From: Pseudomonadota bacterium
Lineage (GTDB): Bacteria > Desulfobacterota > Desulfobulbia > Desulfobulbales > Desulfurivibrionaceae
Assembly (NCBI GenBank): GCA_018830485.1
Contig: JAHJRQ010000013.1
Coordinates: 62,001 to 126,000 of the forward strand
Reading direction: 5' to 3'
Length of the DNA: 64,000 bases
Of this stretch, positions 10,325 to 26,958 are shown piece by piece (positions within the stretch are counted from its first letter, which is position 1; each line of letters opens with the position of its first letter). The position numbers and the translations under genes are program-made. The notes beneath the pieces were generated by a model. The model made no database searches and was not told the DNA's origin. It saw only the letters and a program-made list of their open reading frames with translations.

Positions 10325-10414
10325 TGACGAACTCGCAACAATGCGAAAAAATCCACTGGTCTTCAATACAAGATCAAAAAGCTACAGCCGCAAAGCGGCG
10401 AAGCGATAACCCCT

Positions 10415-10446: not shown

Positions 10447-10491
10447 GTAGCCCCCTCCCGGCGCAAGCCGGACATGAGTTCACCTCCCCCT

Positions 10492-10535
10492 GCCCCCGTG
10501 AAGGCCACCGTATGCAAAACGGCCTTCACGGGGGC
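10492..10535 (+). terminator. Strong hairpin between pstS and pstC
   Basis: GCCCCCGTGAAGGCC (10492-10506) and GGCCTTCACGGGGGC (10521-10535) form a perfect 15-bp stem with a 14-base loop. The following TTCTCC is not a full T tract, so it probably attenuates or stabilises and does not terminate completely. It lies 50 bases before the pstC start. Confidence 0.6.
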
Positions 10536-10585
10536 TTCTCCAGTAGAAGCCATTTAATGCAGGATCCAGAACCACAAGGAACCCC

Positions 10586-12808
10586 ATGCAGAAACTCGAC
10601 AAACAATTCATCAAAAAGGTCCGCCGCCAGGATCGGTTCGCCACCCGGGCCATCACCGTGGGCGGGATGCTGGTCATCGCCAGCGTCATCGCCATCCTGG
10701 TGCTGATCGTTCGGGTGACCCTGCCGCTGTTTCAGTCGGCCGACGCCGAGGTCTCCCACCGGTTTGCCGTGCAGTCCGGCACAGCCCCTGTCCTTGCCGT
10801 GGGTATGGACGATACCCAGGAGGTGGGTTTTACCCTGGACACCACAGGGTTTTTCTCCTTCTACGATCTCGCCTCGGGCAAACCCTTTTTCTCCGCCCCG
10901 GCCTCCACCCGAAAGGCCAAGGTGCAATCCGTCGAGAGCAACAAGAACAACGTCTTTGCCTTGCTGTGGGAAGACAACAGCGTCACCGTTTCCCAGGTGG
11001 ATTTCCGTCTCCTGTACGACGAATCCGGCCAACGGACCGTGCAGCCGGAGATCAGTCAACTGGGCGAATACCCTGCCCGTCGCTATCCGTCCCAGGTCAA
11101 GAGCATGATGGTCCGCGCCCATGAAGACCGGCTGACCCAGGTGGCGCTGCTCGCTGACAACCGGTTCCAGATAGATCACGAGGTCGTCACCGCCAATATC
11201 CTGGGCGATGAAAAAAAAGAGGCTTTTTCCTTTCTGCTCAAAGAAGAGCTGCCGGGCACAATCACCGCCTTCACCCTGGATGAGCAAGGCAAGGCACTCT
11301 TTGCCGGCACCGATACCGGCAGCCTCCTGCGCTGGGATCTGGGGGAAAACGCGAGCGCAGAGCGGACCGACAACGTGGTCGCCGTGTCTGGCAACAAAGG
11401 GGTCACCGCCCTGGCCATGGTGTTCGGCGACATCTCCGTGGCGGTGGGCGACGCCCAGGGCGGCCTTGCCACCTGGAGCCGGATATGGGAGGGCGAGGGA
11501 GACGACCGGGTTCGGCGGCTCCGTAAAATCCATGTCCTGACCAGCCACCAGTCCCCGGTGGAGCGCATCATCCCCTCCCGCCGCTCCAAATCCCTGGTCA
11601 GCCTCGGCGCCGACGGCAAAACCCATTTCGACCATATGACCAGCGAAAAACACCTGCTGAATCTCGAACCCGCCCTGACCATGGCTGGCATCTCCGGCCA
11701 GGGCAATGGCCTGATCGGCCTTGATTCGCGCAACAATCTTACCGTCTGGAGCGTCCATGCCCCCCACCCGGAAACCAGCCTGAAAACCCTGTTCGGCAAA
11801 GTCTGGTACGAGAGCTACGACAAGCCGGAATATGTCTGGCAGTCCTCCTCCGCCTCCGACGATTTTGAACCGAAACTCAGCCTGGTGCCGCTGCTCTTCG
11901 GCACCATCAAGGGCACCCTGTACGCCATGATCTTTGCCGTGCCGCTGGCCATCTTCGGCGCGGTCTACACCAGCCAGTTCAGCACCGCCGGCTTTAAAAA
12001 GACGGTCAAACCGGTGGTGGAGATCATGGCCTCGATCCCCTCTGTGGTCATCGGCTTTCTCATCGCCCTCTGGCTGGCGCCCATCGTGGAAAAAGCCATT
12101 CTCGCCGTGATCCTGGGGGTGCTGCTCCTGCCGCTGGTCTTCATTACGATCATGGTTGTCCTCAAGCCTTTTTACAAAACGCCCACCCTGCAAAATTTCT
12201 GCAGCGGCTATGAATTCGTGCTGGTGCTGCCGGCCATCCTCCTGGCCGCGGCCCTGGCCATGGGAATCTCGCCAACGGTGGAGCAACTGATGTTTGCCGG
12301 CGACTTCAAGCAATGGCTCTACAACGATCTCGGGTTGCGCTATGACCAGCGCAACTGCATCATCATTGCCTTCGGCCTGGGCATCGCGGTGATCCCCATC
12401 ATCTTTTCCATCACCGAGGATGCAATCTCCAACATTCCCCCCAGCCTGACCGCCGCCTCCCTGGCCTTGGGCGCCAGCCGCTGGCAGACGATCTGGCGGG
12501 TGGTCCTCCCCTCGGCCAGCCCCGGCATCTTTGCCGCGATCATGATCGGCTTCGGCCGGGCAGTAGGGGAAACCATGATCGTGCTCATGGCCACCGGCAA
12601 CACCCCCATCCTCGACTGGTCCATCTTCAACGGCATGCGGACCCTGTCCGCCAACATCGCCGTGGAGATCCCGGAAGCGCCCATGGGCGGCACCCTCTAC
12701 CGGGTGCTCTTTCTCTGCGCCTCCATGCTCTTCGCCCTGACCTTTGTGGTGAACACCGGGGCGGAGCTGATCCGCGAACGGCTGCGGAAGAAATATGGAC
12801 GGTATTAA
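10586..12808 (+). CDS. pstC: Phosphate ABC transporter permease PstC, long form
   Basis: A 740-residue permease, more than twice the length of E. coli PstC. One N-terminal helix (residues about 30-55) is followed by some 370 residues of soluble, beta-rich sequence that reads like WD40-type repeats (for example ITAFTLDEQGKALFAGTDTG), and then the normal permease domain from about 430 with EDAISNIPPSLTAASLALGA as the coupling loop. Long PstC proteins of this kind are known in other proteobacteria. The soluble insertion would lie between helix 1 and the rest, probably in the periplasm. It imports phosphate with PstA, PstB and PstS. Start ATG 10586 follows AAGGA. Confidence 0.9.
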   Translation: MQKLDKQFIKKVRRQDRFATRAITVGGMLVIASVIAILVLIVRVTLPLFQSADAEVSHRFAVQSGTAPVLAVGMDDTQEVGFTLDTTGFFSFYDLASGKPFFSAPASTRKAKVQSVESNKNNVFALLWEDNSVTVSQVDFRLLYDESGQRTVQPEISQLGEYPARRYPSQVKSMMVRAHEDRLTQVALLADNRFQIDHEVVTANILGDEKKEAFSFLLKEELPGTITAFTLDEQGKALFAGTDTGSLLRWDLGENASAERTDNVVAVSGNKGVTALAMVFGDISVAVGDAQGGLATWSRIWEGEGDDRVRRLRKIHVLTSHQSPVERIIPSRRSKSLVSLGADGKTHFDHMTSEKHLLNLEPALTMAGISGQGNGLIGLDSRNNLTVWSVHAPHPETSLKTLFGKVWYESYDKPEYVWQSSSASDDFEPKLSLVPLLFGTIKGTLYAMIFAVPLAIFGAVYTSQFSTAGFKKTVKPVVEIMASIPSVVIGFLIALWLAPIVEKAILAVILGVLLLPLVFITIMVVLKPFYKTPTLQNFCSGYEFVLVLPAILLAAALAMGISPTVEQLMFAGDFKQWLYNDLGLRYDQRNCIIIAFGLGIAVIPIIFSITEDAISNIPPSLTAASLALGASRWQTIWRVVLPSASPGIFAAIMIGFGRAVGETMIVLMATGNTPILDWSIFNGMRTLSANIAVEIPEAPMGGTLYRVLFLCASMLFALTFVVNTGAELIRERLRKKYGRY

Positions 12809-12883
12809 AAAAATGATCGCCACATGTCAGTCCTCGGCAGCAGTGCCGATAACTCCACGAAAGATGTTATTTAATCTGGTTTT

Positions 12884-12908
12884 GGAATCCGTCTTCGCGA
12901 GAATGACG
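12884..12908. repeat. Second copy of the VIPAKAGIQ-type palindromic repeat
   Basis: GGAATCCGTCTTCGCGAGAA followed by TGACG is a diverged copy, in opposite orientation, of the repeat at the ptxD 3' end. It lies in the 192-base gap between pstC and pstA. The sequence after it (12960-12985) contains a short direct repeat TTTCGTGG/TTCGTGG. Confidence 0.55.
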
Positions 12909-13000
12909 ATTCAGATATGTGATTGCCGGAGCAATACATAATCCTTTTTAGTGTTTTTCGTGGGTTTCGTGGCAAAATTCTGTTGTTTGGAGAAAATATC

Positions 13001-14593
13001 ATGACCAAAAAATTCTTGCGGCAGGGAGAGCCATTCGTCTGGGCCACGGGCCTGGCTCTTTCCCTGATCCTCTTCCTGACCCTGATCCTCTTCTATGTCG
13101 TTATGGCCAACGGCCTCGCGGTTTTCTGGCCGAAAAAGGTCGCCCTGGCGACCCTGCAGGATGGCCGGTTCATGCTTGGGGAAATTGTTCAGGAAGAAAT
13201 CATCCCCCACACCGATAACAAACGGCTCCAGTTCAAGATCGGCAACCGGGATCTCTACGGCCTTGACTTCAAATGGGTGGACGCCTCGGAAATCACCAGT
13301 CTCACCTACCCAAAAGATGTCCATGTGCTTGAGCGCTTGGAATACGGCAATTTTTACGGATACCTGAGCGCATTGGAGGTCAAGGGGATCGCGCCGCCCG
13401 CCTCCGGGTCCAACAGTCTGGCCCTGACCATTGATGCCCTCGAAGACCGGAAAGTTGAGGTGCATCTTTTGGGCAAGAAGATAGCCAACCTCAACCGGCG
13501 GGTGGAGAAAATCGACCACCACCTGGCCACGGCCCGCTACAATAAGGAAGAAAACACCCCGGCCCTGGCCGCCTTGCAGGGGGAGAAGCAGGGACTCAAA
13601 ACCGAGTTCGAGGCATTGGTTTCCATACTCGGAGAAAAATCCGCGGCCCTGGCCACCAATCAGGCGATCTTCACCGACGCCAATGGCAGGACCAAGGCCA
13701 TAGCCCTGCCCAACATCGTCCGCTCCTACCAGCCGAACAATATGTCGTTCTTCGCCAAATGCGGTTATTACCTGGAGCGGCTGCGGGAACTTCTCTTTGA
13801 CGAACCCAGGGAATCAAACACCGAGGGCGGACTGTTCCCGGCCATCTTCGGCACCGTCATGCTGATCTTTCTCATGAGTATCCTCTCCTTTCCACTGGGG
13901 GTGCTGGCCGGCATCTATCTGCGCGAATACGCCAGGGAGGGCTGGCTGGTGAAGATGGTCCGCATCGCGGTGAACAATCTGGCCGGTATCCCTTCCATCG
14001 TCTACGGCATCTTCGGCCTGGGTTTCTTCGTCTACGGGATCGGCGGCACCATCGACCAGCTCTTTTACCCGGAGCGGCTACCCGCCCCGACCTTCGGCAC
14101 CGGCGGCATCCTCTGGACCAGCCTTACCCTTGGGCTGCTCACCGTGCCGGTGGTGATCGTGGCCACGGAAGAAGCATTGGGCTCCATCCCCCCCGGCATC
14201 CGGGAAGGTTCCCAGGCCCTGGCCGCCACCAAGCTCCAGACCCTGACCCGGATCCTGCTGCCCATGGCCTCGCCGGGCATCCTCACCGGCTTTATCCTGG
14301 CCATGGCCAGGGCTGCGGGCGAGGTGGCGCCGCTGATGCTCACCGGAGTGGTCAAGCTGGCTCCGGCGTTGCCCCTGGACGGGGTTTTCCCCTATCTGCA
14401 CCTGGACCGGAAATTCATGCACCTGGGCTTCCACATTTACGACATCGGTTTCCAGTCCCCCAATGTGGAGGCGGCCAAGCCCATGGTGTATGTGACCACC
14501 ATGCTGCTGATCCTGATCGTGCTCGCCATGACCAGCACTGCCATCCATCTGCGTAACAAGATGCGGCAACGCCACTCCGTGGTCGATGTGTAG
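13001..14593 (+). CDS. pstA: Phosphate ABC transporter permease PstA, long form
   Basis: A 530-residue permease. The first helix (about 15-38) is followed by roughly 240 extra residues that include a charged heptad-like stretch around 160-215 likely to form a coiled coil, then the standard permease domain with EEALGSIPPGIREGSQALAA as the ATPase-contact loop. The paired enlargement of PstC and PstA suggests their insertions touch each other or PstS. ATG 13001 follows TTTGGAGA; an upstream in-frame start at 12923 lacks a site. It works with PstC in phosphate import. Confidence 0.9.
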   Translation: MTKKFLRQGEPFVWATGLALSLILFLTLILFYVVMANGLAVFWPKKVALATLQDGRFMLGEIVQEEIIPHTDNKRLQFKIGNRDLYGLDFKWVDASEITSLTYPKDVHVLERLEYGNFYGYLSALEVKGIAPPASGSNSLALTIDALEDRKVEVHLLGKKIANLNRRVEKIDHHLATARYNKEENTPALAALQGEKQGLKTEFEALVSILGEKSAALATNQAIFTDANGRTKAIALPNIVRSYQPNNMSFFAKCGYYLERLRELLFDEPRESNTEGGLFPAIFGTVMLIFLMSILSFPLGVLAGIYLREYAREGWLVKMVRIAVNNLAGIPSIVYGIFGLGFFVYGIGGTIDQLFYPERLPAPTFGTGGILWTSLTLGLLTVPVVIVATEEALGSIPPGIREGSQALAATKLQTLTRILLPMASPGILTGFILAMARAAGEVAPLMLTGVVKLAPALPLDGVFPYLHLDRKFMHLGFHIYDIGFQSPNVEAAKPMVYVTTMLLILIVLAMTSTAIHLRNKMRQRHSVVDV

Positions 14594-14752
14594 GAGATTG
14601 CGGAATGGGTACCACGATTCCAAATTACCCGAGCCCGTAATCAGTTACTGACAGCGCCACTTGCCACAGTCAAAAACCTCCGCCCCCGAGGGGAGGGGAG
14701 TAAAAATGGCACCCATTTTCAATTGTGCAAGAGGCTCTAACAAGGAGAGAAC

Positions 14753-15541
14753 ATGTCAACAACCGACACCGCCATACTCCGTATCGACAACCCGCAGGTC
14801 GCGATCGAGGAGTTGAATCTTTTCTACGGGGAGAGCCAGGCGCTCAAGGACCTGACCTTCGGGATTCCTGGCCAGCAGGTGACCGCCCTGATCGGCCCCT
14901 CGGGCTGCGGCAAATCCACCCTGATCCGCTGCATCAACCGGATGAACGACCTGGTTGACGGACTGCGTATCGAGGGAGCCATCACAATCAACGGGGAGAA
15001 CATCAACGATCCCAGCCTGGATGTGATTGAACTCCGGCGCAAGGTCGGCATGGTCTTCCAGAAATGGAACCCTTTCCCCAAGTCCATCTACGAAAACATC
15101 GTCTACGGGCTCAGGATCGCGGGCATCCAGGACAAATCCGTGCTCGACGAGGCCGCGGAAAAATGTCTGAAACGGGCCGCCCTCTGGGACGAGGTCAAGG
15201 ACCGGCTGCACCAGTCGGCCATGGGCCTTTCCGGCGGTCAGATGCAGCGGCTCTGCATCGCCCGGGCCATTGCCGTGAACCCTGAGATCATCCTCATGGA
15301 CGAGCCCTGCTCAGCCCTGGACCCCCGCTCCACAGGGAGGATAGAAGATCTCATCCGCGAGCTGCGGGGCGAGTACACCATAATCATCGTCACCCACAAC
15401 ATGCAGCAGGCGGCGAGGATCTCCGACTACACCGCCTACATGTATCTCGGGGAGCTCATCGAATACGGGCCGACCCAGAGGCTGTTCACCATGCCGGAGA
15501 AAAAGGAAACAGAGGATTACATCACCGGCCGGTTCGGCTGA
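14753..15541 (+). CDS. pstB: Phosphate ABC transporter ATPase PstB
   Basis: A 262-residue ATPase with all PstB hallmarks: Walker [20 protein letters not shown], the PstB-specific [16 protein letters not shown], signature [14 protein letters not shown] and Walker [15 protein letters not shown]. An AAGGAGAG site precedes the ATG. It powers phosphate uptake and, in characterised bacteria, also takes part with PhoU in telling the PhoR kinase whether phosphate is sufficient. Confidence 0.95.
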
Positions 15542-15550
15542 TCGCTGCCA

Positions 15551-15687
15551 CCATCCAGCAGCACCGCCCCTGCTTCGCAGTCTCGCTATGCTCGTTTAGC
15601 TGTCATCGGCCTGCTCATGTGCAACAGCACACTTCGCAGACCTCTTCCGCGCATCTGCGGCAGCAGCGAAGCGGCTCTGCTGGACGG
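15551..15687. repeat. Long imperfect inverted repeat between pstB and phoU
   Basis: Arms CCATCCAGCAGCACCGC (15551-15567) and GCGGCTCTGCTGGACGG (15671-15687) pair at 14 of 17 positions. Inside them GCTTCGC/GCGAAGC and CGCAGA/TCTGCG (15635-15659) also pair. The whole stretch can fold on itself and holds no reading frame. It may be a processed repeat element, a small RNA or an mRNA stability structure. Confidence 0.5.
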
Positions 15688-15785
15688 TTAAAAGGTTAGG
15701 GGTTCTTCCCACTGCACCGGAGAGGCTGCCGAAACCGGGTCCTCCGCTTAATGCTGTGGTTTCATGCACAATAAGGAGCACTTCC

Positions 15786-16469
15786 ATGGCTAAAAACATC
15801 CAGATTGAAATAGAAAAACTCAAAAACGAGATCGTCTATCTCGGCACGGCAGTGCAGGAAAATCTGCAGAAAGCGGTCAAGGCGCTGTGGGAGAAAAATC
15901 CCGATCTGGCCCGCCATGTGATCGAGACCGACAAGGCCGAGATAGACACCATGGAGATCAGCGTGGAAGAGGAATGCCTGCGCCTCCTGGCCCTGCACCA
16001 GCCCGTGGCCGGCGACCTGCGCTTCATCGTCACCGTGCTCAAGATCGACAACGACCTGGAACGCATCGGCGACCTGGCTGCCAAGATCGCGGACAAGGTC
16101 ATCCTGCTCCACAACATCGACCCGGTCAAGTTTACCTCCGATGCCATGCAAATTCCCGAGATGTTCAACGCCATGTTTGCAAAAACCATCTCAATGTTCC
16201 AGAATACCATGGATGCCTTTGTCAATGAGGATACCGACCTGGCTTACAAGGTGTGCCTGGAGGACGACGAGGTGGATCGGGCCAAGGGAGCCATCCGCAG
16301 GGAGATGGAGGAGATCATCATGCATGATCCGGCCCAGCAGGTCTATCTGGCCAAGCTGATCGGCGTGGCCCGGAGCATGGAGCGCATCGCCGACCACTGC
16401 ACTAATATCTGCGAAGACATTATTTATATGGCGCAGGGCAAGATTGTCCGCCATCATATAACACCATAG
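15786..16469 (+). CDS. phoU: Phosphate signalling protein PhoU
   Basis: A 227-residue, all-helical, two-repeat PhoU. Both metal-binding-type motifs are visible: NDLERIGDLAAKIAD in the first repeat and RSMERIADHCTNICED in the second. ATG 15786 follows AAGGAG. In characterised systems PhoU restrains phosphate import and represses PhoR signalling when phosphate is ample. It lies between pstB and phoB as is usual. A second, atypical PhoU domain occurs at 21795-23444. Confidence 0.93.
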   Translation: MAKNIQIEIEKLKNEIVYLGTAVQENLQKAVKALWEKNPDLARHVIETDKAEIDTMEISVEEECLRLLALHQPVAGDLRFIVTVLKIDNDLERIGDLAAKIADKVILLHNIDPVKFTSDAMQIPEMFNAMFAKTISMFQNTMDAFVNEDTDLAYKVCLEDDEVDRAKGAIRREMEEIIMHDPAQQVYLAKLIGVARSMERIADHCTNICEDIIYMAQGKIVRHHITP

Positions 16470-16512
16470 CCCTGCGGGAAATGCCGCCGCTACGCTGCCG
16501 AGGAGAGTGCGA

Positions 16513-17214
16513 ATGGCCAGAGAAACCATCCTTGTCGTGGAAGACGATGAAAATATCCAGCAGTTGGTGGGCTACAACCTGGCCAAGGCCGGGTTCCATG
16601 TAATCTACGCCGACAACGGCGAGCAGGCGCTCAACCAGATCAAGCGGGAAAAGCCGGGGCTGATCGTCCTCGATCTCATGCTCCCGGGCTTGAGCGGCTT
16701 CGAGATCTGCAAGCTGGTGCGCAAGGATCCCAAGACCAAAAATCTGCCCATTGTCATGCTCACCGCCAAAAGCGAGGAAAACGACATGGCCGCGGGCCTG
16801 GATCTCGGGGCGGACGATTACATCACCAAGCCCTTCAGCCCAAAAATCCTCGTCTCCCGGATCAAGGCTGCCCTGCGCCGCAAGGAGGGGGGCAGCGAAG
16901 AGGGGGGGAGCGGCAAGAAAACCGGCCCCATAACCATCCACGGTATCACCATCGACCCCAACCGCTACGAGGTTCTGGTGGGCGATGAGCCCATTTCCCT
17001 GACCGTCACCGAATTTTCCATCCTGGAGCTTCTCACCCGGCGGCCGGGATGGGTCTTCAACCGGCAGCAGATCATCGACGGGGTCCGGGGCTACGACTAC
17101 GTCATCACCCCCCGCGCCGTGGACGTGCAGGTATTCGGGCTCAGGAAAAAGCTGGGCGAGGCAGGCAAGTACATCGAAACCGTTCGCGGCATCGGCTACC
17201 GCATGCAGGGTTGA
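16513..17214 (+). CDS. phoB: Phosphate regulon response regulator PhoB
   Basis: A 233-residue OmpR/PhoB-type regulator. The receiver has the acidic pair in VVEDDENI, phosphoacceptor D54 in LIVLDLML and the switch lysine in YITKPFS. A winged-helix domain ends with the typical VETVRGIGYRM. ATG 16513 is preferred over GTG 16507 because AGGAGAG lies upstream. It would bind the 11-bp repeat arrays before pstS and the GAK cluster. No phoR kinase gene is adjacent; one must be supplied from elsewhere or by another kinase. Confidence 0.88.
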   Translation: MARETILVVEDDENIQQLVGYNLAKAGFHVIYADNGEQALNQIKREKPGLIVLDLMLPGLSGFEICKLVRKDPKTKNLPIVMLTAKSEENDMAAGLDLGADDYITKPFSPKILVSRIKAALRRKEGGSEEGGSGKKTGPITIHGITIDPNRYEVLVGDEPISLTVTEFSILELLTRRPGWVFNRQQIIDGVRGYDYVITPRAVDVQVFGLRKKLGEAGKYIETVRGIGYRMQG

Positions 17215-17249: not shown

Positions 17250-18890
17250 TTAATACACGACAACCCGCCCAGGCAACCCTCCCCCGCCCCCCTCATATGC
17301 AGCCGCACGCCTATAGCTTTGCCCTGACGGGCCACCGGCATCGAGGGCAAGCCGGTCAGCGTTGCGCTCACTTGCAAACCGCACCAGAACATCCCATAAT
17401 TCCCTGGCTGGCTCCGGAGCAGACAGTCCAATCCAGCGGCCGAAATATTCCCGCTGGTGGAACGCCGGCGCTTTCTGCAGGGCGATGGTATACACATCCT
17501 CCGGCTCCGGCGTTGCGGGCCCCCAATAGGCGGATTCCGGCATAGCCGCCTTTACCCGCGCCAGATCCTCGCCGGTGACCTGCAACCGGTACAGGCTGGT
17601 AAAACCAGGCGTCCCGGCAGGCTCGCGCTCCACCGGAAAGGCATCAAAAACATCCTGCCGGGTCAGGTTCCCACGGCGCCACTCCTTGCGCACCGCATGC
17701 AAACCGACAAAGGCCGCATCGACCTCCAGGATCTCCACGGCGGCGCGGGCGGCGAGCATAGCCATCTCTCCCGAGCTTTGGTCGGCGGAGAGGCGAGTAA
17801 AACCCTCGGAGAGAGCGCCTTGATAATCGTGCAAAATCTTCCGCACCTCCCTGTCTGTGGCTTCATCCACCGGCGTTTCCCCCTCGCGGTTTGGGATGAG
17901 GGAAAAAGCACTGTGCCGGATGCATCTTTTTTGCAGATCATATTCGATGTCGAACCTGCCGATATTCTCGGCATTGGCGCCGGCATGGACAATTGCCGTA
18001 TCCTTCACCCGAAGAGGTTCCGACATGACGGCATGGGTGTGGCCGCCCAAAATCAGGTCGATGCCCTGGGTCTCCCTTGCCAGACGGGCATCTTCTTCTA
18101 CCCCAAGATGGCTGACCAGAACAAGGAGATCGACTTCCCCCCGGTGTTGTGCGATAATATCGCGGGCGATATCGACAAAATTAAAATCCGAGCGCAATTC
18201 CGGCATCCCGGGATAAAAATCCCCGTCATACTGTTCGTCCTTTTCATTCCAGGGCTTGGAGACCAGAGCGAAAAACCCGATCTTCACCTGGCCCACCCGC
18301 AAGACGGCATAATCGGTCCAGCCCGGCTGTCTTCCTGATTGGCCGCCGGCATTGCCTGCGGTCATTTTCGTGTTGGAAGCAAGAACGATTGCAGAGGGGT
18401 CGCGGCTGAAGGCCATCAACTCATCAATCCCCCAGGCAAAATCGTGGTTGCCGATGGTCCGAACATCGTATTGCATCGCCTTTACTATTTCCCTGGTTGC
18501 CGCCCCATGGGAAATCTCCTCGGCAATGGAGCCCTTTTCGTAGTCGTCCCCCGCGTTGGTGAGGATCGTATAAGGATTCTCCCTTCTCACCTGCTCGAAA
18601 TACCCGCGCAATCTCGCAACCGGACTTGAGCCGCCACTGACGGGATTATAGTGGGCATGAACGTCGGCGACATGGACAAAAGAAATCTTCTGTGTTGTGG
18701 CCAAGATATCCCCGGCCAGCCAGCGCGTTCGGCCCTGCCCAAAACCACCCCCTGCCCCCCCAGAAACGGATGCCGCTCCGCCGAGGGATATCGCCCCGGA
18801 GGGAAGCAGGACAAAACTAAAAATGGCGACAGCCGCAAGGACATTCACTCTCCCTTTCAGATTCAGCCTGAAAGCCGACAAAAATTTCAT
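17250..18890 (-). CDS. Secreted 5'-nucleotidase-like metallophosphatase
   Basis: About 546 residues of the UshA/5'-nucleotidase family. The N-terminal hydrophobic segment (VNVLAAVAIFSFVLLPSGAIS) is a signal peptide or anchor. Metal-site motifs are DVHAH, NAGDDYEKG, IGNHDFAWG, LVSHLGVEED and GGHTHAVM, followed by the C-terminal 5'-nucleotidase domain. It would release phosphate from nucleotides or similar esters in the periplasm. It converges on phoB with a 35-base gap. The start is uncertain: ATG at 18890 gives a clean signal peptide, GTG at 18917 is possible, and neither has a strong ribosome site. No clear Pho repeats precede it. Confidence 0.8.
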   Translation of the reverse strand: MKFLSAFRLNLKGRVNVLAAVAIFSFVLLPSGAISLGGAASVSGGAGGGFGQGRTRWLAGDILATTQKISFVHVADVHAHYNPVSGGSSPVARLRGYFEQVRRENPYTILTNAGDDYEKGSIAEEISHGAATREIVKAMQYDVRTIGNHDFAWGIDELMAFSRDPSAIVLASNTKMTAGNAGGQSGRQPGWTDYAVLRVGQVKIGFFALVSKPWNEKDEQYDGDFYPGMPELRSDFNFVDIARDIIAQHRGEVDLLVLVSHLGVEEDARLARETQGIDLILGGHTHAVMSEPLRVKDTAIVHAGANAENIGRFDIEYDLQKRCIRHSAFSLIPNREGETPVDEATDREVRKILHDYQGALSEGFTRLSADQSSGEMAMLAARAAVEILEVDAAFVGLHAVRKEWRRGNLTRQDVFDAFPVEREPAGTPGFTSLYRLQVTGEDLARVKAAMPESAYWGPATPEPEDVYTIALQKAPAFHQREYFGRWIGLSAPEPARELWDVLVRFASERNADRLALDAGGPSGQSYRRAAAYEGGGGGLPGRVVVY

Positions 18891-19089
18891 TTTATTGAAA
18901 ATAATACTGTTCACCACATGGTCAGATTAGTAATTGCATAGCACTGTTCCTGATTAGGTATTAATGAATGATTGTTATAAACGGGTTAAAAGCAGATAAT
19001 ATTTTCATGAGTTTGATTTTTTAAATAATTTATTACAGTTTCCTTACAGGAATCAAATATTCAGCCTGTATTGTATATACTAATAGCTC

Positions 19090-19443: not shown

Positions 19444-19504
19444 CTCCGAAGAAGAAATGCACAGCGGGCGCCGGCTCTTTGCCATCCGATCGCTTGTCGA
19501 AATC

Positions 19505-19570
19505 CTAACTAAAAACTAACGATAAACTAATGAAAAACTAACTATTCACTAGCCGCAAACATGGTATTCT
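19505..19570 (+). promoter_or_regulatory. Pho-box array and -10 element of the GAK cluster
   Basis: Five 7-mers start every 11 bases: CTAACTA (19505), CTAACGA (19516), CTAATGA (19527), CTAACTA (19538) and the degenerate CTAGCCG (19549). The first three 4-base spacers are AAAA, TAAA and AAAA. TATTCT at 19565-19570 lies 9 bases after the last repeat and can act as the -10 hexamer. The units match those before pstS (CTAATGA, CTAATAA, CTAACAA), including one identical 7-mer. This points to direct control by PhoB. Confidence 0.75.
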
Positions 19571-19632
19571 CTAAAGAGATTCGGCGCATTGAGCGCCTTG
19601 CCATCATCCACTCACAACAGGGGGAACACGAC

Positions 19633-20181
19633 ATGTCCGGCAAAGAAATGAAATTTGAGAAAGTGATGCCCTTCAAGAATTCCGCTGATTTTTTTCGCGT
19701 ACTGGCCCAGATGATCGAACACGGCAACACTGATGAGTTGAAGGAATTCGACCCCACCTTTGACGACCTCAAGAAGATGAAGCTCGAACTGAAACGAGAG
19801 GGCGACCAGCTCCATCTGAAGGCCAAGGTCAAGACCGTTTCTCCCGCCTCGGTTTGCGGCGAGGGGAGCGGCGAAGAGTTGGAAGCCGGCGGCAAGCCCA
19901 AATACAAAACGGTGAAGAAACGGATGGAGAAGTGCTTCAAATCCATGGGCGTCTCGCTCAAGAAGGGGATCATGCCCGAGAAGGGTGAGGTGGATTTGTT
20001 CATTGCCGATTCGGAGCTCATGGTGGGGTATCCGAACAAAGGCGATGAGCACTATGACGAGTACGCCAAGCTCTGCGTCCAGCTCAACGTGGCTTATGAG
20101 AATGCGGACCTCGCGGCCATGCAGGAAAAATACGCCGAACTCAAGGCGATGGAGAAGCTCTGCCATGATCAGTACAAATAA
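19633..20181 (+). CDS. GAK system XXXCH-type protein
   Basis: A 182-residue charged, lysine-rich protein without membrane segments. The C-terminus carries Cys177-His178 in AMEKLCHDQYK, the feature for which the XXXCH family is named. ATG at 19633 is chosen because GGGGGAA precedes it; an upstream ATG at 19561 lies inside the promoter. It is the first gene after the Pho-box array. No enzymatic motif is visible. A conserved terminal motif in a small protein encoded with ligase and kinase genes suggests a carrier or modification substrate, which is inference only. Confidence 0.75.
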   Translation: MSGKEMKFEKVMPFKNSADFFRVLAQMIEHGNTDELKEFDPTFDDLKKMKLELKREGDQLHLKAKVKTVSPASVCGEGSGEELEAGGKPKYKTVKKRMEKCFKSMGVSLKKGIMPEKGEVDLFIADSELMVGYPNKGDEHYDEYAKLCVQLNVAYENADLAAMQEKYAELKAMEKLCHDQYK

Positions 20182-20284
20182 TGCCATGGCCAAAACATTC
20201 GCATGCCTTCGCAAGTGAAACCCGCCCAGGCCCTGCCTATTATCGCGGCGCCGACACAGCCAAAATACGGAGCAGACCGCGTCC

Positions 20285-21451
20285 ATGAAACTGGTCAAAC
20301 CAAAACATAAATCGGAAGTGGTGCCCCACGCCCTGCCCGATATGATTCCGGAGGAGATTACGGAAAGCGATGAGCAAGGTTTTTTCGCCATCACCTCGAC
20401 AAAGCTGACCCCCGAGCAAATCCGGCTGGTGCTGACCCCGGAGAAGACCTACCCAAGGCAGCAGGGGGTCATGGCGCTCCATTGGCACCCCGAATTCGTG
20501 CCCATGGAGCTGATTGAGCAGCGAATCAACACCACCTTCCCCAACCGGAAGGAAGAGCTGATCATCCCCACCCAGCACAACATGCTGATGAGTTACGGGG
20601 ATTACAGCGGAGTAGAGGTGGACTGTTATTCCCGGGGATTCAACCGCAAGGTGCAACTGCTGCTGCATTTCGAGAAAAGCAGGCTTGACCGTGCCGGGAT
20701 TCTCAAGGCGCAATTGGCCCATACCCGGCAGTACCGGGCCTCCCAGCTCTTCGATTTCATCCACACCATCACCAGTCCGGCGGAGGAGCGGCTCGACGAG
20801 GCTGCCGGAGAAACCGGGGCCGATGCCGAGTTGGTCGGCTTTATCCGCATCTATGTGCGCAAACTCAACGAGCTCCTGGACCGCCACATGGACCAGGTGC
20901 CGCAGGATAGTATCAAGAACAAACTGTTGCGCGACTTCTTCGACACCCTGCGCCCGGAGTACGGCGACACGGTGATCAACCGTTCCCAGGCATTTCTGAA
21001 AGCGGTCAAGGAGATCGTCAAACGGAATTTTTCCCCCAAGTATTTCTACCGCACCTCGGAGATCATCGAGGAAGCCCGCGGCCTGGGGGCGGGGGTGGTC
21101 ATTCCCCATCCGGAGCAGTTCTGGCCGATCCTGTTGGCCGACTATGACGTGGACGGCTATGAGGTCTGGAACCCACAATCTCGCGAATACACCGATTTTC
21201 TCATCTCCGTGCTCAACCGGAAGAACCGGGAAGCAGGCCCGTCAAAAAAACGCCTGCTGGTTTTCATGGGAGACGACACCCACATGAGCGAAAAGACCAG
21301 GCCGCAGCACGAACGCGATCACCTCAAGGTTTCCCGGGAGATCGGGGTGCAACCGCCCTGGAGCGACTTGGTCATCCGCAAAAAACTGGTGGTGGCGCAC
21401 ATGGACAAACACGATGTGCTGGAAGAGTACAAGGCCAGACTGGCAGGATGA
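20285..21451 (+). CDS. PHP-like putative metal-dependent hydrolase in the GAK cluster
   Basis: A 388-residue soluble protein. Candidate metal ligands are spread as in PHP-domain phosphoesterases: H66 and H68 in ALHWHPE, H98 in IIPTQHNML, H128 in LLLHFE, H273 in VIPHPEQFW, and D330/D331/H333 in FMGDDTHMS. The context VDGYEVWNP between the last two resembles the glutamate-bearing strand of PHP enzymes. The assignment is from motif pattern only and a related amidohydrolase fold is possible. It lies 103 bases after the XXXCH gene, preceded by GGAG, and 57 bases before the amphi-Trp gene. It could hydrolyse a phosphoester produced or used by the cluster. Confidence 0.55.
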   Translation: MKLVKPKHKSEVVPHALPDMIPEEITESDEQGFFAITSTKLTPEQIRLVLTPEKTYPRQQGVMALHWHPEFVPMELIEQRINTTFPNRKEELIIPTQHNMLMSYGDYSGVEVDCYSRGFNRKVQLLLHFEKSRLDRAGILKAQLAHTRQYRASQLFDFIHTITSPAEERLDEAAGETGADAELVGFIRIYVRKLNELLDRHMDQVPQDSIKNKLLRDFFDTLRPEYGDTVINRSQAFLKAVKEIVKRNFSPKYFYRTSEIIEEARGLGAGVVIPHPEQFWPILLADYDVDGYEVWNPQSREYTDFLISVLNRKNREAGPSKKRLLVFMGDDTHMSEKTRPQHERDHLKVSREIGVQPPWSDLVIRKKLVVAHMDKHDVLEEYKARLAG

Positions 21452-21508
21452 CCGACAACCGCAACGGTTCCATTTTTTTCGATGTAACAATCCATTCGAG
21501 GTATGAAT

Positions 21509-21781
21509 ATGTCCACCAAAAAATTTGACTACGAATCATTGCAGGACGCCCACTCCATCAAAACCTACCTGGTCTCCCTGATCGATTCCATCGAGAAGGG
21601 GCGAATCATCCTCAAGTCCAACGGCGAGGAGATGGCCATGCGGGTGGATGATCTGATGAAATTTTCAGTGCAGGCAAAAAAGAAGGACGGGCAAAACAAG
21701 CTGTCCATAAAATTATCCTGGTCGGAGATCAAACCGGTCATCAAGGAGGAGCGCGCTTCCTCCATGAGCATCGGCTCGTGA
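21509..21781 (+). CDS. GAK system amphi-Trp domain protein
   Basis: A 90-residue protein. The core reads KGRIILKSNGEEM and ends with an amphipathic strand LSIKLSWSEIK containing the single tryptophan, the pattern that names the amphi-Trp family. ATG 21509 is preferred to 21503 because GAGG at 21498-21501 is 7 bases upstream. It is followed after 13 bases by the PhoU-kinase gene. No catalytic residues are visible, so a binding or carrier role is more likely than an enzymatic one. Confidence 0.75.
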   Translation: MSTKKFDYESLQDAHSIKTYLVSLIDSIEKGRIILKSNGEEMAMRVDDLMKFSVQAKKKDGQNKLSIKLSWSEIKPVIKEERASSMSIGS

Positions 21782-21794
21782 TGATCCCTCAGCC

Positions 21795-23444
21795 ATGCTG
21801 ACCACCGCGCTCAAGGAAAATCTCAGTTTCATGGTTGTCGAAGTGGCGCGTCAGCTCGACGAGACCTTCGATTTTCTGGCAAACGGCGAGGCCTCCGCCT
21901 TCCGGAAAATCAACAGCCGGGACGACTACATCGACAACCTTAAAACAGTGATCGAGAACTGCTGCTTCACCACCCTGAGCGAAACTAAGGCCATCACTCA
22001 ACAGGAGCGGGACAGTATTCAGGCAACCCACACCATCTGCGTCAATCTGGAACGCATCGGCGACTTTTGCGTCAGCGCGGCGGACCAGCTCCACTACCTC
22101 AACAATCATGCCATTCTCCAACATTTCGATTATCAGCAGATCTTCGACATCCTTGCCGAGCACCTGCAGGCGGTGATCCCGGTACTCAAGGAAGGCGACA
22201 TGGGCAAGGCCCTTGCCATCTGCCGTGCCGAAAACCAGATCGATGCCATCTACAAGGAGAACTTCGACAAAATCATGGAAGCGCTCCGGAGCGGCAAGGA
22301 GATCGAAAACCTGATCACCGTGCTCTTCATCTTCCGCTACCTGGAGCGGATGGGCGACTCGCTCCTCAATATCGGCGAAGCCTTGCTTCTTTCCATCCTG
22401 GGAGAAAAGATCAAGATCGAACAATTCCAAGCCCTGGAGGAAACCCTCACCAAATCTGGGTTGCGCGCCAGTCTGGCCGAGGTGGAATTTTCCTCCATCC
22501 TGGGCAGCCGTTCCGGCTGCCGGATCCGCAAGGTTAAGAGCCATGACGGGCAGCCGCTGATCGCCCCCCAGACGCAGAGCAGCATCTTCAAGGAGGGCAA
22601 CAAGGAAAAAATCCTGGCGGAAAAGAATAACCTGGAACGCTGGAGCGAGATCTTCCCCGGCCTGACCCCCAGACTATTCAGCCATCAGGAATCGGAGGAG
22701 ACCGCCTCCCTGCTGGTGGAATTTCTCCCCGGACGAACCTTCGAGGCCATTCTTCTCAAGGGCGATCCCGCCGAACTGGAAACGGTATGCGCGCTGCTGC
22801 ACGCCACGGCCCTGGATATCTGGCAACGGACCCGAAAAGAGGTTCCGGTCAAGGCCAACTTCATCGCGCAGATCATGGCCCGCATGCACAGCGTGCTCAG
22901 CGTGCATCCCGATTTCCTCCGGGTCCGCCAGGACATCGGTTCCTCGGAGGTCATGCCCACCGACGAGCTGCTGGCCAAGTGCCGCCAGATCGAAGAGAAA
23001 CTTGCCGCCCCCTTCTCGGTCTTTATCCACGGCGACTTCAACGTCAACAACATTATCTATAACGGCGCCGCGAAGCGCATTCAGTTCATCGACCTCTATC
23101 GCTCCCGCGAGGGGGACTACATCCAGGATGTGTCGGTGTTCATCGTCTCCAACTTCCGACAGCCGGTCTTTAAAACGCACCTGCGTGACCGGCTCAACTG
23201 GATCACCCGTGATATGTATCAGATGGCGCGTGAATTTGCCGTCGAACAGGGCGATGAAACCTTCGAAGTACGCATGGCCTTGGCACTGGCCCGCTCCTTT
23301 TACACCTCCACCCGTTTTGAGTGGAATAACGATTTTTCCCATGAAATGTTTCTGCGCTCCCACTTTCTACTGGAAAAAGTGCTGGCGCATCAGGACAAGC
23401 CTTGGCACACCTTTTCCCTGCCTACCGGCATCATGTACTACTGA
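21795..23444 (+). CDS. PhoU domain fused to an APH-like small-molecule kinase
   Basis: A 549-residue two-part protein. Residues 1 to about 220 are helical and PhoU-like, with NLERIGDFCVSAADQL and FRYLERMGDSLLNIGEAL in the positions of the two PhoU metal motifs. Residues about 230-549 resemble aminoglycoside/choline kinases: H412-G-D-F-N-V-N-N is the catalytic loop and D433 in QFIDLYRS is the metal-binding aspartate. Both key kinase residues are present, so it should bind ATP and phosphorylate a small molecule. The PhoU half suggests the activity is linked to phosphate status or the PstB/PhoR complex. It lies inside the Pho-controlled GAK cluster. I know of no characterised homologue. Confidence 0.78.
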   Translation: MLTTALKENLSFMVVEVARQLDETFDFLANGEASAFRKINSRDDYIDNLKTVIENCCFTTLSETKAITQQERDSIQATHTICVNLERIGDFCVSAADQLHYLNNHAILQHFDYQQIFDILAEHLQAVIPVLKEGDMGKALAICRAENQIDAIYKENFDKIMEALRSGKEIENLITVLFIFRYLERMGDSLLNIGEALLLSILGEKIKIEQFQALEETLTKSGLRASLAEVEFSSILGSRSGCRIRKVKSHDGQPLIAPQTQSSIFKEGNKEKILAEKNNLERWSEIFPGLTPRLFSHQESEETASLLVEFLPGRTFEAILLKGDPAELETVCALLHATALDIWQRTRKEVPVKANFIAQIMARMHSVLSVHPDFLRVRQDIGSSEVMPTDELLAKCRQIEEKLAAPFSVFIHGDFNVNNIIYNGAAKRIQFIDLYRSREGDYIQDVSVFIVSNFRQPVFKTHLRDRLNWITRDMYQMAREFAVEQGDETFEVRMALALARSFYTSTRFEWNNDFSHEMFLRSHFLLEKVLAHQDKPWHTFSLPTGIMYY

Positions 23445-23466
23445 TATCCTGAAAAGAGGTCTTACC

Positions 23467-24342
23467 TTGAAGAAAATAGGTGTGGTTGGTATTGTCGGCG
23501 GCTGGTCCTCCGAGAAACTCGCCGATGCGGTGGCGGAACGCACAGGTTTCCGCCTGCTGGTGGATCCGGGTGCGGTGCGACTCGACCTGCCCTCGGGCCG
23601 GGTGCTTTCCGGCGAGGTGGAGCTCAACTCCCTAGACGGCCTGATCATCAAAAAGATCGGCACGGACTACTCCCCGGATCTGCTCGACCGGCTGGAGGTC
23701 TTCCGCTTCCTGGCCAGCCGGGGGATGCCGGTCTTTTCCAACCCGCTGAACATCATCCGGGTGCTGGACCGCCTCACCTGCACCATCACCCTGCAACTCG
23801 CCGGGATCCCGATGCCGCCGCTGACCATCACCGAGGATATCGACGCGGCGCTAGAGGCGGTTACACAGTATGGCGAGGCGGTTTTCAAACCCCTCTACTC
23901 CACCAAGGCGCGGGGCATGATCGTGCTGCGGCCCGACAGGGAAACCCGGGCGATCATCGAGAAATACAAAGCCGCGCACCGGATCATGTACATCCAGAAG
24001 AAGATCGAGCTGAACGGCCGTGATCTGGGAGTAGTGTTCCTGGGCGGCCAGTACCTCACCACCTACGCCCGCACCTGCCGTAACGACTCCTGGAACACCA
24101 CCACCGCTTCCGGCGGCAAGTACCAGCCCCACGAGCCGCCGGAAGAGATCGTCGCCCTGGCGCATACAGCCCAAGCCCCATTCGGCCTCGACTTCACCTG
24201 CGTTGATGTGGTGGAGACCGCCGAGGGTCCGCAGGTGTTCGAGGTCTCCGCCTTCGGGGGTTTCCGCGGCATTCAGGAAGCCTGCGGCATTGACGCGGCC
24301 AAACATTATGCGGACTATGTCTGCGGGAGGATTGGGGCATGA
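23467..24342 (+). CDS. GAK system ATP-grasp enzyme
   Basis: A 291-residue RimK-like ATP-grasp protein. The start is TTG at 23467 with AGAGG at 23455, and no ATG gives a complete N-terminus (KKIGVVGIVGGWSSEKLADA). ATP-binding features are VFKPLYSTKARGM, the hinge MYIQKKIEL, and late acidic/asparagine residues in FGLDFTCVDVVE and FEVSAFGGFRG. Such enzymes join a carboxylate to an amine or thiol through an acyl phosphate. It could ligate an amino acid or cofactor to one of the small proteins of the cluster. It overlaps the next gene by 4 bases. Confidence 0.78.
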   Translation: MKKIGVVGIVGGWSSEKLADAVAERTGFRLLVDPGAVRLDLPSGRVLSGEVELNSLDGLIIKKIGTDYSPDLLDRLEVFRFLASRGMPVFSNPLNIIRVLDRLTCTITLQLAGIPMPPLTITEDIDAALEAVTQYGEAVFKPLYSTKARGMIVLRPDRETRAIIEKYKAAHRIMYIQKKIELNGRDLGVVFLGGQYLTTYARTCRNDSWNTTTASGGKYQPHEPPEEIVALAHTAQAPFGLDFTCVDVVETAEGPQVFEVSAFGGFRGIQEACGIDAAKHYADYVCGRIGA

Positions 24343-25427
24343 AGGGAAACGCCACGGAACGTCATGAAATGGTCCAGCGCCTCCGCATGGAGTTTCCGCC
24401 TGTTCACCAGCTTGTTCTCGCCTTTGACGACTGCCGGATCGGGGTTCGGACCAATTCCATCGCCCTGACCGATACCCTGCGGGAGTACTTCAGCGATTTT
24501 CTCTCGGACACCCCGGTCTGGGACATGCTGCTCACCGCCCATGAGGCAAAACCGCCGGAGCTTCCCCATGCCTTCACGGCCAAGGAGCCGGACCCGGGCA
24601 AGAACAAGATCAAGGAAGAGTTTGTCGATCTGGCCGACGGCCGCGTGGTGCGCAAGAGGCTTACCGGCATGGTCTTCGTCTTCGGCGGCGACGACAACCT
24701 GGCCATCGGTCCTTGCCTGGACAACGCCAACCAGGTGATCAACTTCATCAACAACCGCTTCATCAGTTGGAAACTCCGAAAGGGCTGCCTGCTGGGCCAT
24801 GCCGCCGGCATCGGCCTCCACGGCTCCGGCCTGGCGCTGGCCGGTTTCTCGGGCATGGGCAAGTCAACACTGGCCCTGCACCTGATGAGCCGTGGCACGG
24901 ACTTCATCAGCAATGACCGGGTGCTGCTCAAGGATGATGGCGTCGGCCTCTTCTTGTACGGGGTGGCCAAGCTCCCCCGCATCAACCCCGGCACCGCGCT
25001 CAATAACCCCGACCTGGCGGGGGTCATCCCCCCCCAGGACCGGGAACGCTTTGCCGGTCTTGCCCAGGAGGCGCTCTGGAGCCTGGAACACAAATACGAC
25101 GTGTTCCTCGACCACTGCTTCGGACCCGGCCGTTTTACCCTGGCCGCCCCCATGGCGGGGCTGGTAATCCTCAACTGGCAGCGGGGGCAGGCCGCCACCG
25201 TGGCTCGGGAGGTTGATATCCGGCAGCGGCGGGATCTGCTTCCGGCCTTCATGAAATCAGCCGGTCTTTTCTTTCTGCCGGAACACGGCGAGGAGATCGA
25301 TCATTCCGAGGAGGCCTATCTGGAGCGCCTCGCAAAAACCCGGGTGTACGAGATCAGCGGCAGCATCGATTTCGACCGGGCCTGCGATGCCTGCCTAAAA
25401 ATCCTGGCCGAATGCCGCGGCCGCTGA
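24339..25427 (+). CDS. HprK-related kinase B (GAK system)
   Basis: A 362-residue protein with the HPr kinase fold in its second half. Walker A is GFSGMGKST (169-177), G153-H-A-A-G lies just before it, and FISNDRV (189-195) corresponds to the downstream acidic site of HPr kinase. The N-terminal 110 residues have no clear match. HPr kinases phosphorylate a serine of HPr; this branch lacks HPr nearby, so the substrate is unknown and may be one of the small cluster proteins. The ATGA overlap with the ATP-grasp gene shows tight coupling. Confidence 0.8.
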   Translation: MKGNATERHEMVQRLRMEFPPVHQLVLAFDDCRIGVRTNSIALTDTLREYFSDFLSDTPVWDMLLTAHEAKPPELPHAFTAKEPDPGKNKIKEEFVDLADGRVVRKRLTGMVFVFGGDDNLAIGPCLDNANQVINFINNRFISWKLRKGCLLGHAAGIGLHGSGLALAGFSGMGKSTLALHLMSRGTDFISNDRVLLKDDGVGLFLYGVAKLPRINPGTALNNPDLAGVIPPQDRERFAGLAQEALWSLEHKYDVFLDHCFGPGRFTLAAPMAGLVILNWQRGQAATVAREVDIRQRRDLLPAFMKSAGLFFLPEHGEEIDHSEEAYLERLAKTRVYEISGSIDFDRACDACLKILAECRGR

Positions 25428-25445
25428 CACACGAGGCATTATCGC

Positions 25446-26639
25446 ATGAAGATGAATGTATGCAGGGAGATAACCCTGCCGGACCCGGTCCGGGTGGAAC
25501 TCTACCGGCGCACCCCCGAACTGGGGCCGCGACTGCTTTTCTTCAGCGGCGGCAGCGCCCTGCGGGGCGTAAGCCGGGAACTGATCCGCTACACCCATAA
25601 CTCCTGCCACATCATGACCGCCGTCGATTCCGGCGGCAGTTCGGCCACCCTGCGGCAGGCTTTTTCCATGCCCTCCATCGGCGATATCCGGGCCAGGCTC
25701 ATGGATTTGGCCGACCAGAGCGTGCAGGGCAACCCGGAGATGTACCGCCTCTTTGCCTACCGCTTTCCCAAGGAGGCCGGGCAAGAGATGCTCCTCGCCG
25801 AACTGAAGGGCATGATTGGCGGTCGGCACCGGCTGGTGTCAGCCATCCCCGACCCCTTGCGCAAGATTGTTCGCCATCACCTGAAGATCTTCCTGTCTCG
25901 GATGCCGGAAAACTTCGACCTGCGGGGGGCCAGCATCGGGAATCTGGTACTCACCGCCGGGTATCTGGACAACGGCCGCCACCTCGACCCGGTGATCTTT
26001 CTCTTTTCGAAACTGGTCGAGGCGCGGGGCACGGTCCGGCCGGTGCTCAACCGCTATTTGCATCTGGGGGCGATGCTTGCCGACGGCCAGGTTGTGGTGG
26101 GCCAGCACCTGCTCACCGGCAAGGAGGTTCCGCCTCTTGACAAGAAAATCGCCCACCTCTTTCTGACCATGACAACCTCTCCCACCAGCAGGGGCGAGGT
26201 TTGGCCACGGGTGCGTGATAAGCTCCCCGAGCTGATTCTCTCCGCTCAACTGATCTGTTATCCCATGGGAAGTTTCTATTCCAGCCTCATCGCCAGCCTG
26301 TTGCCGGAGGGGGTGACCGAGGCCATCCAGAAAAATGTCTGCCCAAAGGTCTATATCCCCAGCATGGGAAGAGACCCGGAGGCAGTTGGCCTGAGCCTCA
26401 TGGACCAGATCGAAACCCTGCTGCGCTACCTGAAGAAAAACAACCCCGGCATTCCAACCCGTCAGGTATTGAATTGTGTTCTGGTTGACTCAAAAAATGG
26501 AATCTACTCCGGGGAAGTGGACGAAGAAAGGCTTATGGAATTGGACATTCAATTAATCGACTGTCCGCTGGTCAGTGAAGAAAGCGCCCCCTACTGCGAG
26601 CCTGGATTACTGGTCCCCCTGCTGCTCTCGCTATCGTAA
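25446..26639 (+). CDS. GAK system CofD-like protein
   Basis: A 397-residue protein of the CofD/YvcK superfamily. The family nucleotide-binding start LLFFSGGSALRGVSRELI and TAVDSGGSSATLRQAF are clear. CofD itself transfers a phospholactyl- or phosphoenolpyruvyl-type group from a dinucleotide in coenzyme F420 synthesis; no other F420 gene lies here, so this member has another substrate. It begins 18 bases after the kinase gene. Together with a kinase, an ATP-grasp enzyme and a hydrolase it suggests a phosphodiester-containing product. Confidence 0.8.
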   Translation: MKMNVCREITLPDPVRVELYRRTPELGPRLLFFSGGSALRGVSRELIRYTHNSCHIMTAVDSGGSSATLRQAFSMPSIGDIRARLMDLADQSVQGNPEMYRLFAYRFPKEAGQEMLLAELKGMIGGRHRLVSAIPDPLRKIVRHHLKIFLSRMPENFDLRGASIGNLVLTAGYLDNGRHLDPVIFLFSKLVEARGTVRPVLNRYLHLGAMLADGQVVVGQHLLTGKEVPPLDKKIAHLFLTMTTSPTSRGEVWPRVRDKLPELILSAQLICYPMGSFYSSLIASLLPEGVTEAIQKNVCPKVYIPSMGRDPEAVGLSLMDQIETLLRYLKKNNPGIPTRQVLNCVLVDSKNGIYSGEVDEERLMELDIQLIDCPLVSEESAPYCEPGLLVPLLLSLS

Positions 26640-26649
26640 ACAGACCATC

Positions 26650-26958
26650 ATGACCGAAGAGGAAAGAATGATTACGCCGCACGGCGGGCAAGAACCCGAC
26701 CAAAAAAGCCTGGAAAGCATTGTCGACGACCTGGCCATGCAATTCCGGGTTCCGCCGGAAACCATCAGACCGTTATTGCTCTGCGCTTACCAGGAGCTCA
26801 TGACAGAGGCGGTGGTCAAGGATTTCGTCTCCATCTTTGCCATGCGCATGGTGCGTGACCGATTTGAAGCGCAGGGGAATGGCGGCGAGTGGCACGGCAA
26901 ATACCGCAAACCGAACCCTTTTTCCCTGAAGCAGTCGACCAACAGGATACACATTTGA
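26650..26958 (+). CDS. Small DUF3562-like protein closing the GAK cluster
   Basis: About 102 residues starting MTEEERM at 26650. The middle, LAMQFRVPPETIRPLLLCAY to FAMRMVRDRFEA, resembles the DUF3562 pattern of small helical proteins, an assignment I hold loosely. It starts 10 bases after the CofD-like gene and ends before a hairpin at 27005, so it is probably the last gene of the operon. Nothing catalytic is visible. Confidence 0.55.
   Translation: MTEEERMITPHGGQEPDQKSLESIVDDLAMQFRVPPETIRPLLLCAYQELMTEAVVKDFVSIFAMRMVRDRFEAQGNGGEWHGKYRKPNPFSLKQSTNRIHI

Follow-up and report, generated by a model that had tools for sequence, protein, structure and literature searches.

The GAK cluster and its promoter

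A 64-kb window of a 2.89-Mb Desulfobacterota genome (contig JAHJRQ010000013.1; the window is the whole stretch of DNA analysed here) carries a GAK cluster at positions 19633-26958 (+). It consists of eight genes on a single strand:

19633..20181, +: XXXCH protein (TIGR04358), with an amphi-Trp-like N-terminal domain and a cytochrome c'-like four-helix domain without CXXCH
20285..21451, +: predicted PHP-family metal-dependent phosphoesterase with a helical insertion, assigned by predicted fold and invariant ligand residues
21503..21781, +: amphi-Trp protein (TIGR04354)
21795..23444, +: PhoU domain fused to an aminoglycoside-phosphotransferase (APH)-type kinase (Pfam PF01895 and PF01636), motif HGDFNxNN intact
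23446..24342, +: GAK ATP-grasp ligase, RimK/LysX/MptN-like (TIGR04356; RimK and LysX in PDB)
24339..25427, +: HprK-related kinase B, HprKB (TIGR04355), with P-loop GFSGMGKS and H154 kept and SNDR in place of the HprK ADDR
25446..26639, +: GAK CofD-like protein, YvcK/GlmR-related (TIGR04357; YvcK in PDB, E 4e-36)
26650..26958, +: small protein resembling DUF3562/'Phosphatase-like_N', a lineage-specific operon tail (sub-threshold Pfam matches)

Five of the proteins score above the NCBI curated cut-offs for GAK families and stand in the usual GAK order: XXXCH at 94 bits (cut-off 40), amphi-Trp at 63 (31), ATP-grasp at 453 (300), HprKB at 534 (200) and the CofD-like protein at 514 (340). TIGR04355, TIGR04356 and TIGR04357 thus lie in one cluster with XXXCH and amphi-Trp alongside, which is the composition of a GAK system. 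A preliminary description, made from the DNA alone, had reported the eight same-strand genes and the five family matches, and both hold. It had also called the last gene DUF3562-like; the resemblance is there, at 25.5 bits against a Pfam threshold of 26.3, and among the GAK loci compared the gene is limited, one weak match aside, to the window and its nearest relatives. The start of XXXCH, given there as 19561, is replaced by the probable ATG at 19633, because MSGKEMK is where the homologues start and 19561 coincides with the likely −10 region of the promoter. An anti-phage defence system was rejected, as no PADLOC model matched at E ≤ 0.001. A search of the PMC library for the GAK system, its TIGR accessions and its protein names returned no paper and no assigned function.

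Two genes outside NCBI's list recur with the system. Among 42 loci with the ATP-grasp gene, 39 carry the PhoU-APH fusion and 38 the PHP gene; on these frequencies both belong to GAK and are near-universal members of it.

Upstream of XXXCH, four head-to-tail 11-bp units occupy 19505-19548, preceded by a weaker fifth unit at 19494 and followed by a likely −10 element, TATTCT, read from the sequence at 19565-19570. In their 11-bp spacing and AT-rich half-sites the units match PhoB/PhoP boxes. The same repeat precedes pstS, and an UshA-like gene between the two, preceded by units CTGTAAGGAAA CTGTAATAAAT, has a box of its own:

19494..19548, +: PhoB-type promoter before GAK, four to five 11-bp direct repeats (TTGTCGAAATC CTAACTAAAAA CTAACGATAAA CTAATGAAAAA CTAACTATTCA)
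9200..9243, +: Pho box before pstS (CTGTTCATCTT CTAATGAAATC CTAATAAAATT CTAACAATCAA), the same repeat as in the GAK promoter
19049-19028, −: Pho box of the UshA-like gene (CTGTAAGGAAACTGTAATAAAT), E. coli-like

With at most one mismatch, the pattern CTAAY-n6-CTAAY-n6-CTAAY occurs four times in the window versus 0.01 in shuffles. Without mismatch the whole genome has only two sites, one before pstS and one before GAK, and the reversed triple-repeat pattern occurs nowhere in it. The PhoB-type promoter proposed in the preliminary description is therefore real and beyond chance. A related tandem repeat forms the PhoB box of D. vulgaris (PMC3333781). With tandem 11-bp boxes in common with pstS, the cluster is a predicted member of the Pho regulon, switched from a predicted PhoB site.

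The surrounding region of the window is a phosphorus island of ~26 kb. As first described, GAK follows pst-phoU-phoB, with the nucleotidase intervening on the other strand:

9254..17214, +: pstS-pstC-pstA-pstB-phoU-phoB (NCBIfam), upstream of GAK on the same strand
17250..18917, −: UshA-like 5'-nucleotidase, between phoB and GAK and divergent from GAK

Before the pst genes, positions 460-4033 (+) hold phnC-phnD-phnE and then a 2-hydroxyacid-dehydrogenase-family gene in the ptxD position. Together these probably serve, as a ptx-type operon, to take up and oxidise phosphite, with the ptxD identity putative; GAK is not mentioned in the passages found of the Desulfotignum phosphite genome paper. 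PstC (740 aa) and PstA (556 aa), encoded at 10586-14593 (+), contain long extra stretches relative to family models of ~270-300 residues.

Phosphate genes beside GAK in other genomes

GAK is joined with phosphate-import genes in at least ten other lineages, in varied operon-like arrangements; several of the loci compared come from metagenome bins, and their names may be wrong. Cultured carriers of GAK include Halodesulfovibrio spirochaetisodalis, Fundidesulfovibrio agrisoli and Desulfocarbo indianensis. The fullest form, phoB-phoR-pstB-phoU-XXXCH-PHP-amphiTrp-PhoUAPH-grasp-HprKB-CofD, is seen in locus L164, with L163 and L165 alike. Elsewhere the order is pstSCAB-phoU-GAK (L042), pstSCA-GAK with a divergent phoB (L046) or phoB-pstB-phoU-GAK (L049). 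Reduced forms consist of pstB-phoU-HprKB-CofD only (L168, L169, L171 and L172), phoB-pstB-phoU-x-CofD (L166, L167 and L173) or pstSCAB-phoU-CofD (L117), and in 13 host-associated Desulfovibrio loci CofD is followed by RluA-like, DUF47 (PhoU_div) and Pit (PHO4) genes. The genomes that hold L117, L167, L098 and L105 yielded no HprKB. The CofD-like protein would be the core of the system, since it is the part that remains, on its own or with HprKB, where the others have gone.

Other arrangements were also observed. The lone CofD gene of host-associated Desulfovibrio (L096-L110, e.g., L105:9839-14038) sits in the rnpA-yidC-jag-mnmE region, before the RluA-like, DUF47 and Pit genes, and given these neighbours its placement within a GAK cluster was rejected. 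The notion that every CofD gene lies beside a PhoU-family gene was likewise rejected, as several Planctomycetota and other loci have none. Clusters of alkaliphiles (Desulfonatronospira/-vibrio-type; L051, L052, L059, L060, L065-L069 and L076) lack HprKB between ATP-grasp and CofD, and in most of these genomes it was not found elsewhere. The Desulfovibrio g156 form (L120 and L122) has grasp-HprKB apart from CofD, and profiles detected no pst gene within its 20-kb loci. A second GAK CofD gene, separate from the one in the full cluster, is present in several genomes of the Desulfovibrio family (L175:16925-18061 (−); paralogues in genomes G386, G428, G439 and G449).

Comparing GAK neighbourhoods across genomes for pst/pho genes or Pho boxes, the check put forward with the preliminary description, found both enriched over expectation or controls. 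The box weight matrix combined the pstS and UshA sites of the window with the E. coli half-site and contained no GAK sequence. At a score of ≥10 it detected boxes in 9/37 GAK upstream regions versus 5/193 control upstream regions (Fisher P 3e-5), where four of the five control positives come from one AT-rich locus and three of the nine GAK positives are close relatives of the window. A scan with the PhoB box published for D. vulgaris (PMC3333781) hit 5/57 GAK upstream regions against 0.28 expected, two of the five being from the same genome.

Gene adjacency was counted with PstB or NCBIfam-checked regulators only, since PhoB counts from our own profile were inflated by NtrC-type regulators. 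Among 25 GAK CofD-carrying genomes drawn evenly across the phylum, three have PstB within 12 kb of CofD, against 0.20 expected (P 9e-4); a fourth (G130, L128) has phoU and a pstB truncated by the contig end. Within the Desulfovibrio family, GAK CofD is carried by 92/119 genomes. PstB lies within 11 kb of it in 15 of the 78 genomes examined, versus 0.61 expected and a maximum of 7 in 200,000 simulations; genomes of the same genus are not independent, and seven genera remain in this count. The control gene purA gave 0/77 in the same family.

Predicted activities of the GAK proteins

The PHP-like protein matched no Pfam or NCBIfam model. Its AlphaFold2 model (pLDDT 90.8) adopts a PHP fold, comparable to RNase AM (9etk, Z 15.5), 3o0f (Z 15.5) and 2yb1, which has AMP/phosphate bound (Z 14.5), and 35 sequences all share the ligand residues H66, H68, H98, E111, H128, H275, D331 and H333. 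With this modelled fold and a complete metal-ligand set, the protein is predicted to be a true PHP phosphoesterase, in keeping with the 'PHP-like hydrolase' of the preliminary description. In the fusion protein, the PhoU domain reaches 81 bits and the APH-type kinase 43 bits in Pfam, so the cluster does have a PhoU domain of its own, as first claimed; key residues of the kinase motif HGDFNxNN are invariant across PhoU-APH fusions. The ATP-grasp protein lies near MptN, RimK and LysX in NCBIfam and near RimK and LysX in PDB.

For the CofD-like family, the best PDB matches are to YvcK (2ppv and 2hzb; E 4e-36 to ~1e-35) over the whole protein, and no CofD structure appears at E ≤ 1e-3, which makes the label used in the preliminary description misleading. 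The next NCBIfam model is that of YvcK, TIGR01826, at 108 bits and below its curated cut-off of 196. By these comparisons the protein is closer to YvcK/GlmR than to CofD, related to TIGR01826 and outside it. Within the YvcK motif DDGGSS, the first Asp (D40) is kept as D61 and the second (D41) is replaced by an invariant Ser (Ser62); N198 is mostly kept in the family and is Ser in the window protein. YvcK/GlmR binds a UDP-sugar, with Y265 and R301 contacting uridine diphosphate N-acetylglucosamine (UDP-GlcNAc) (PMC5482804). Neither residue is aligned to a like residue in GAK CofD, and the ligand of the latter probably differs. A nucleotidyl-transfer or metabolite-sensing role is plausible by analogy, because GlmR/YvcK has uridyltransferase activity (PMC10128056).

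In HprKB, the P-loop, the preceding His and the DR motif align with those of HPr kinase, and residues 191-194 read SNDR, invariantly, for ADDR. The first Asp of ADDR, here replaced by Asn, is the catalytic base in HPr kinase. The substitution suggests altered chemistry or a different acceptor. HPr kinases are sensitive to inorganic phosphate, which would suit a role of HprKB in a phosphate module.

The N-terminal half of XXXCH is homologous to amphi-Trp (hhalign 95.7%, E 9e-9), and its C-terminal half resembles a cytochrome c'-like bundle in sequence (E 8e-4) and fold (Z 10.8). The first Cys of the haem motif CXXCH is absent, and no export signal was seen by eye, no predictor having been run. 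Conserved Lys residues that alternate along the XXXCH strands (K72, 74, 78, 87, 89 and 91) suggest an anionic ligand. Amphi-Trp has no solved structural relative (best E 0.03), and in neither small protein was a conserved acceptor residue typical of a carrier identified.

A probable role in phosphate starvation

GAK very probably belongs to the machinery with which these bacteria meet phosphate scarcity, because it appears to be under the same kind of switch as the phosphate importer and joins with phosphate-import genes in at least ten lineages. This much of the preliminary interpretation stands, on the shared box, the operon joins, the Pit form and the box enrichment; its further step, a phosphodiester-type product on a carrier, stays conjectural.

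The explanation that we favour, and which as a whole we consider about evenly balanced, takes GAK for a cytosolic module accessory to the Pho response, with a YvcK-like core and modification of small proteins. PhoB would switch it on together with the Pst importer. The CofD-like protein would act next to a PhoU-family partner, be it PhoU, the PhoU-kinase fusion or DUF47 beside Pit, and would work in the manner of YvcK/GlmR, as a nucleotide- or sugar-nucleotide-binding regulator or an accessory nucleotidyltransferase, thereby coupling phosphate uptake and use to the state of metabolites inside the cell. As targets or carriers, XXXCH and amphi-Trp would gain and lose phosphoryl or amino-acid groups through the action of the two kinases (HprK-like and PhoU-APH), the PHP phosphoesterase and the RimK-like ligase. 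We hold this signalling and modification mechanism tentatively, at best as an even proposition. A more specific pathway, in which the YvcK-like protein and the HprK-like kinase act directly with PhoU-family proteins, reading a metabolite and controlling phosphate uptake or use via reversible modification of the two small basic proteins, is possible, and we would sooner doubt it than assume it.

Several observations weigh against this explanation. About three quarters of GAK clusters have neither pst within 10 kb nor a detectable box, counts in which contig ends truncate some flanks and box models fail to carry over to some lineages. Beyond Desulfobacterota, a PhoU-family gene is missing from the surroundings of some CofD loci. 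The loss of Y265/R301 and the invariant Ser for the second Asp mean that ligand and activity of the CofD-like protein may differ from those of YvcK, and HprKB carries an invariant Asn where HPr kinase has its catalytic-base Asp.

Some of these points would fit mere co-expression or location, in which GAK has an unrelated role (general stress or envelope) and was placed in the Pho regulon in some lineages: most clusters do not adjoin pst, and many have no box. At least ten lineages with differing arrangements, a built-in PhoU domain and the Pit-DUF47 form are hard to obtain by chance, however, and we regard this reading as improbable. The model of the preliminary description, in which a kinase, CofD-type transfer and ATP-grasp extension make or store a phosphodiester-type product on a small carrier and PHP releases it, is unlikely. 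It has the right enzyme classes, with active-site motifs intact in PHP and the APH kinase, a ligase near MptN, RimK and LysX (LysX acts on a carrier protein) and two related small basic proteins. Yet its transferase is YvcK-like, the core persists as pstB-phoU-HprKB-CofD without ligase, PHP, XXXCH or amphi-Trp, and the small proteins lack an identified acceptor residue of the typical kind.

An envelope switch would take the YvcK kinship further, with a YvcK/GlmR-like protein redirecting sugar-nucleotide or hexosamine flow at low phosphate, during the swap of phospholipids for phosphate-free lipids, and the other proteins regulating. GlmR diverts carbon to peptidoglycan (PMC6171935) and has the uridyltransferase activity noted above (PMC10128056), and D. 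alaskensis alters its envelope lipids under phosphate limitation (PMC5193443); but the UDP-GlcNAc contact residues are lost and no recurring envelope genes were recognised in GAK neighbourhoods, which leaves the idea rather unlikely. Scavenging of phosphate from nucleotides or RNA, by a PHP enzyme akin to RNase AM or a pAp phosphatase, with the other genes regulating turnover, draws on the closest folds (RNase AM and the AMP/phosphate-bound 2yb1) and on the UshA-like nucleotidase with a Pho box that adjoins GAK in the window. Minimal phosphate-linked forms do without PHP, however, and the identity to RNase AM is merely 17%, so that we think it quite improbable. An ArsC/low-molecular-weight phosphatase family gene adjoins GAK in seven loci, on differing sides (L041:4260-4694, L055:3753-4214, L054:11661-12122, L052:718-1155 and three more), which could point to arsenate/phosphate discrimination or arsenate tolerance; with just 7/80 loci and an ArsC score below the curated cut-off, such that the gene may encode a protein phosphatase, we give this very little credence.

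GAK is an already named NCBIfam system, so membership does not make the cluster a new kind. The novelty lies in assigning a function, in adding PHP and the PhoU-APH fusion as components and in defining a minimal core (the YvcK-like protein alone or with the HprK-like kinase, tied to PhoU/Pst or DUF47/Pit); we found none of these stated in a paper. If the more specific signalling pathway is true, it would form, next to PhoR-PhoB, a second tier of phosphate control in bacteria, across Desulfobacterota and a few other phyla. The output of PhoU is a long-standing question that a conserved set of partners sharing its operon opens to direct test, for example in Desulfovibrio strains; for D. alaskensis G20, pooled transposon fitness data at limiting phosphate are already available (PMC5193443).

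Set against known systems, GAK has the promoter motif and operons in common with the Pst-PhoU/PhoBR regulon and adds kinases, a ligase, a YvcK-like protein and small basic proteins. To our knowledge, none of these is part of the classical Pho regulon. YvcK/GlmR of Firmicutes has YvcJ/WhiA as partners, whereas those of GAK CofD are PhoU-family proteins; CofD of F420 biosynthesis is in the same superfamily (Pfam PF01933), yet the GAK protein is nearer to YvcK. HPr kinase/phosphorylase combines a P-loop with a catalytic Asp pair, of which HprKB keeps the P-loop, with an invariant Asn for the first Asp; it has extra N- and C-terminal regions, and the cluster contains no HPr. The GAK PHP protein has fold and metal ligands in common with RNase AM and other PHP phosphoesterases and differs from RNase AM in its ~17% identity, helical insertion (131-268) and lack of a Pfam or NCBIfam match. 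The C-terminal domain of XXXCH, lastly, departs from cytochrome c' in having neither CXXCH haem attachment nor a visible export signal.

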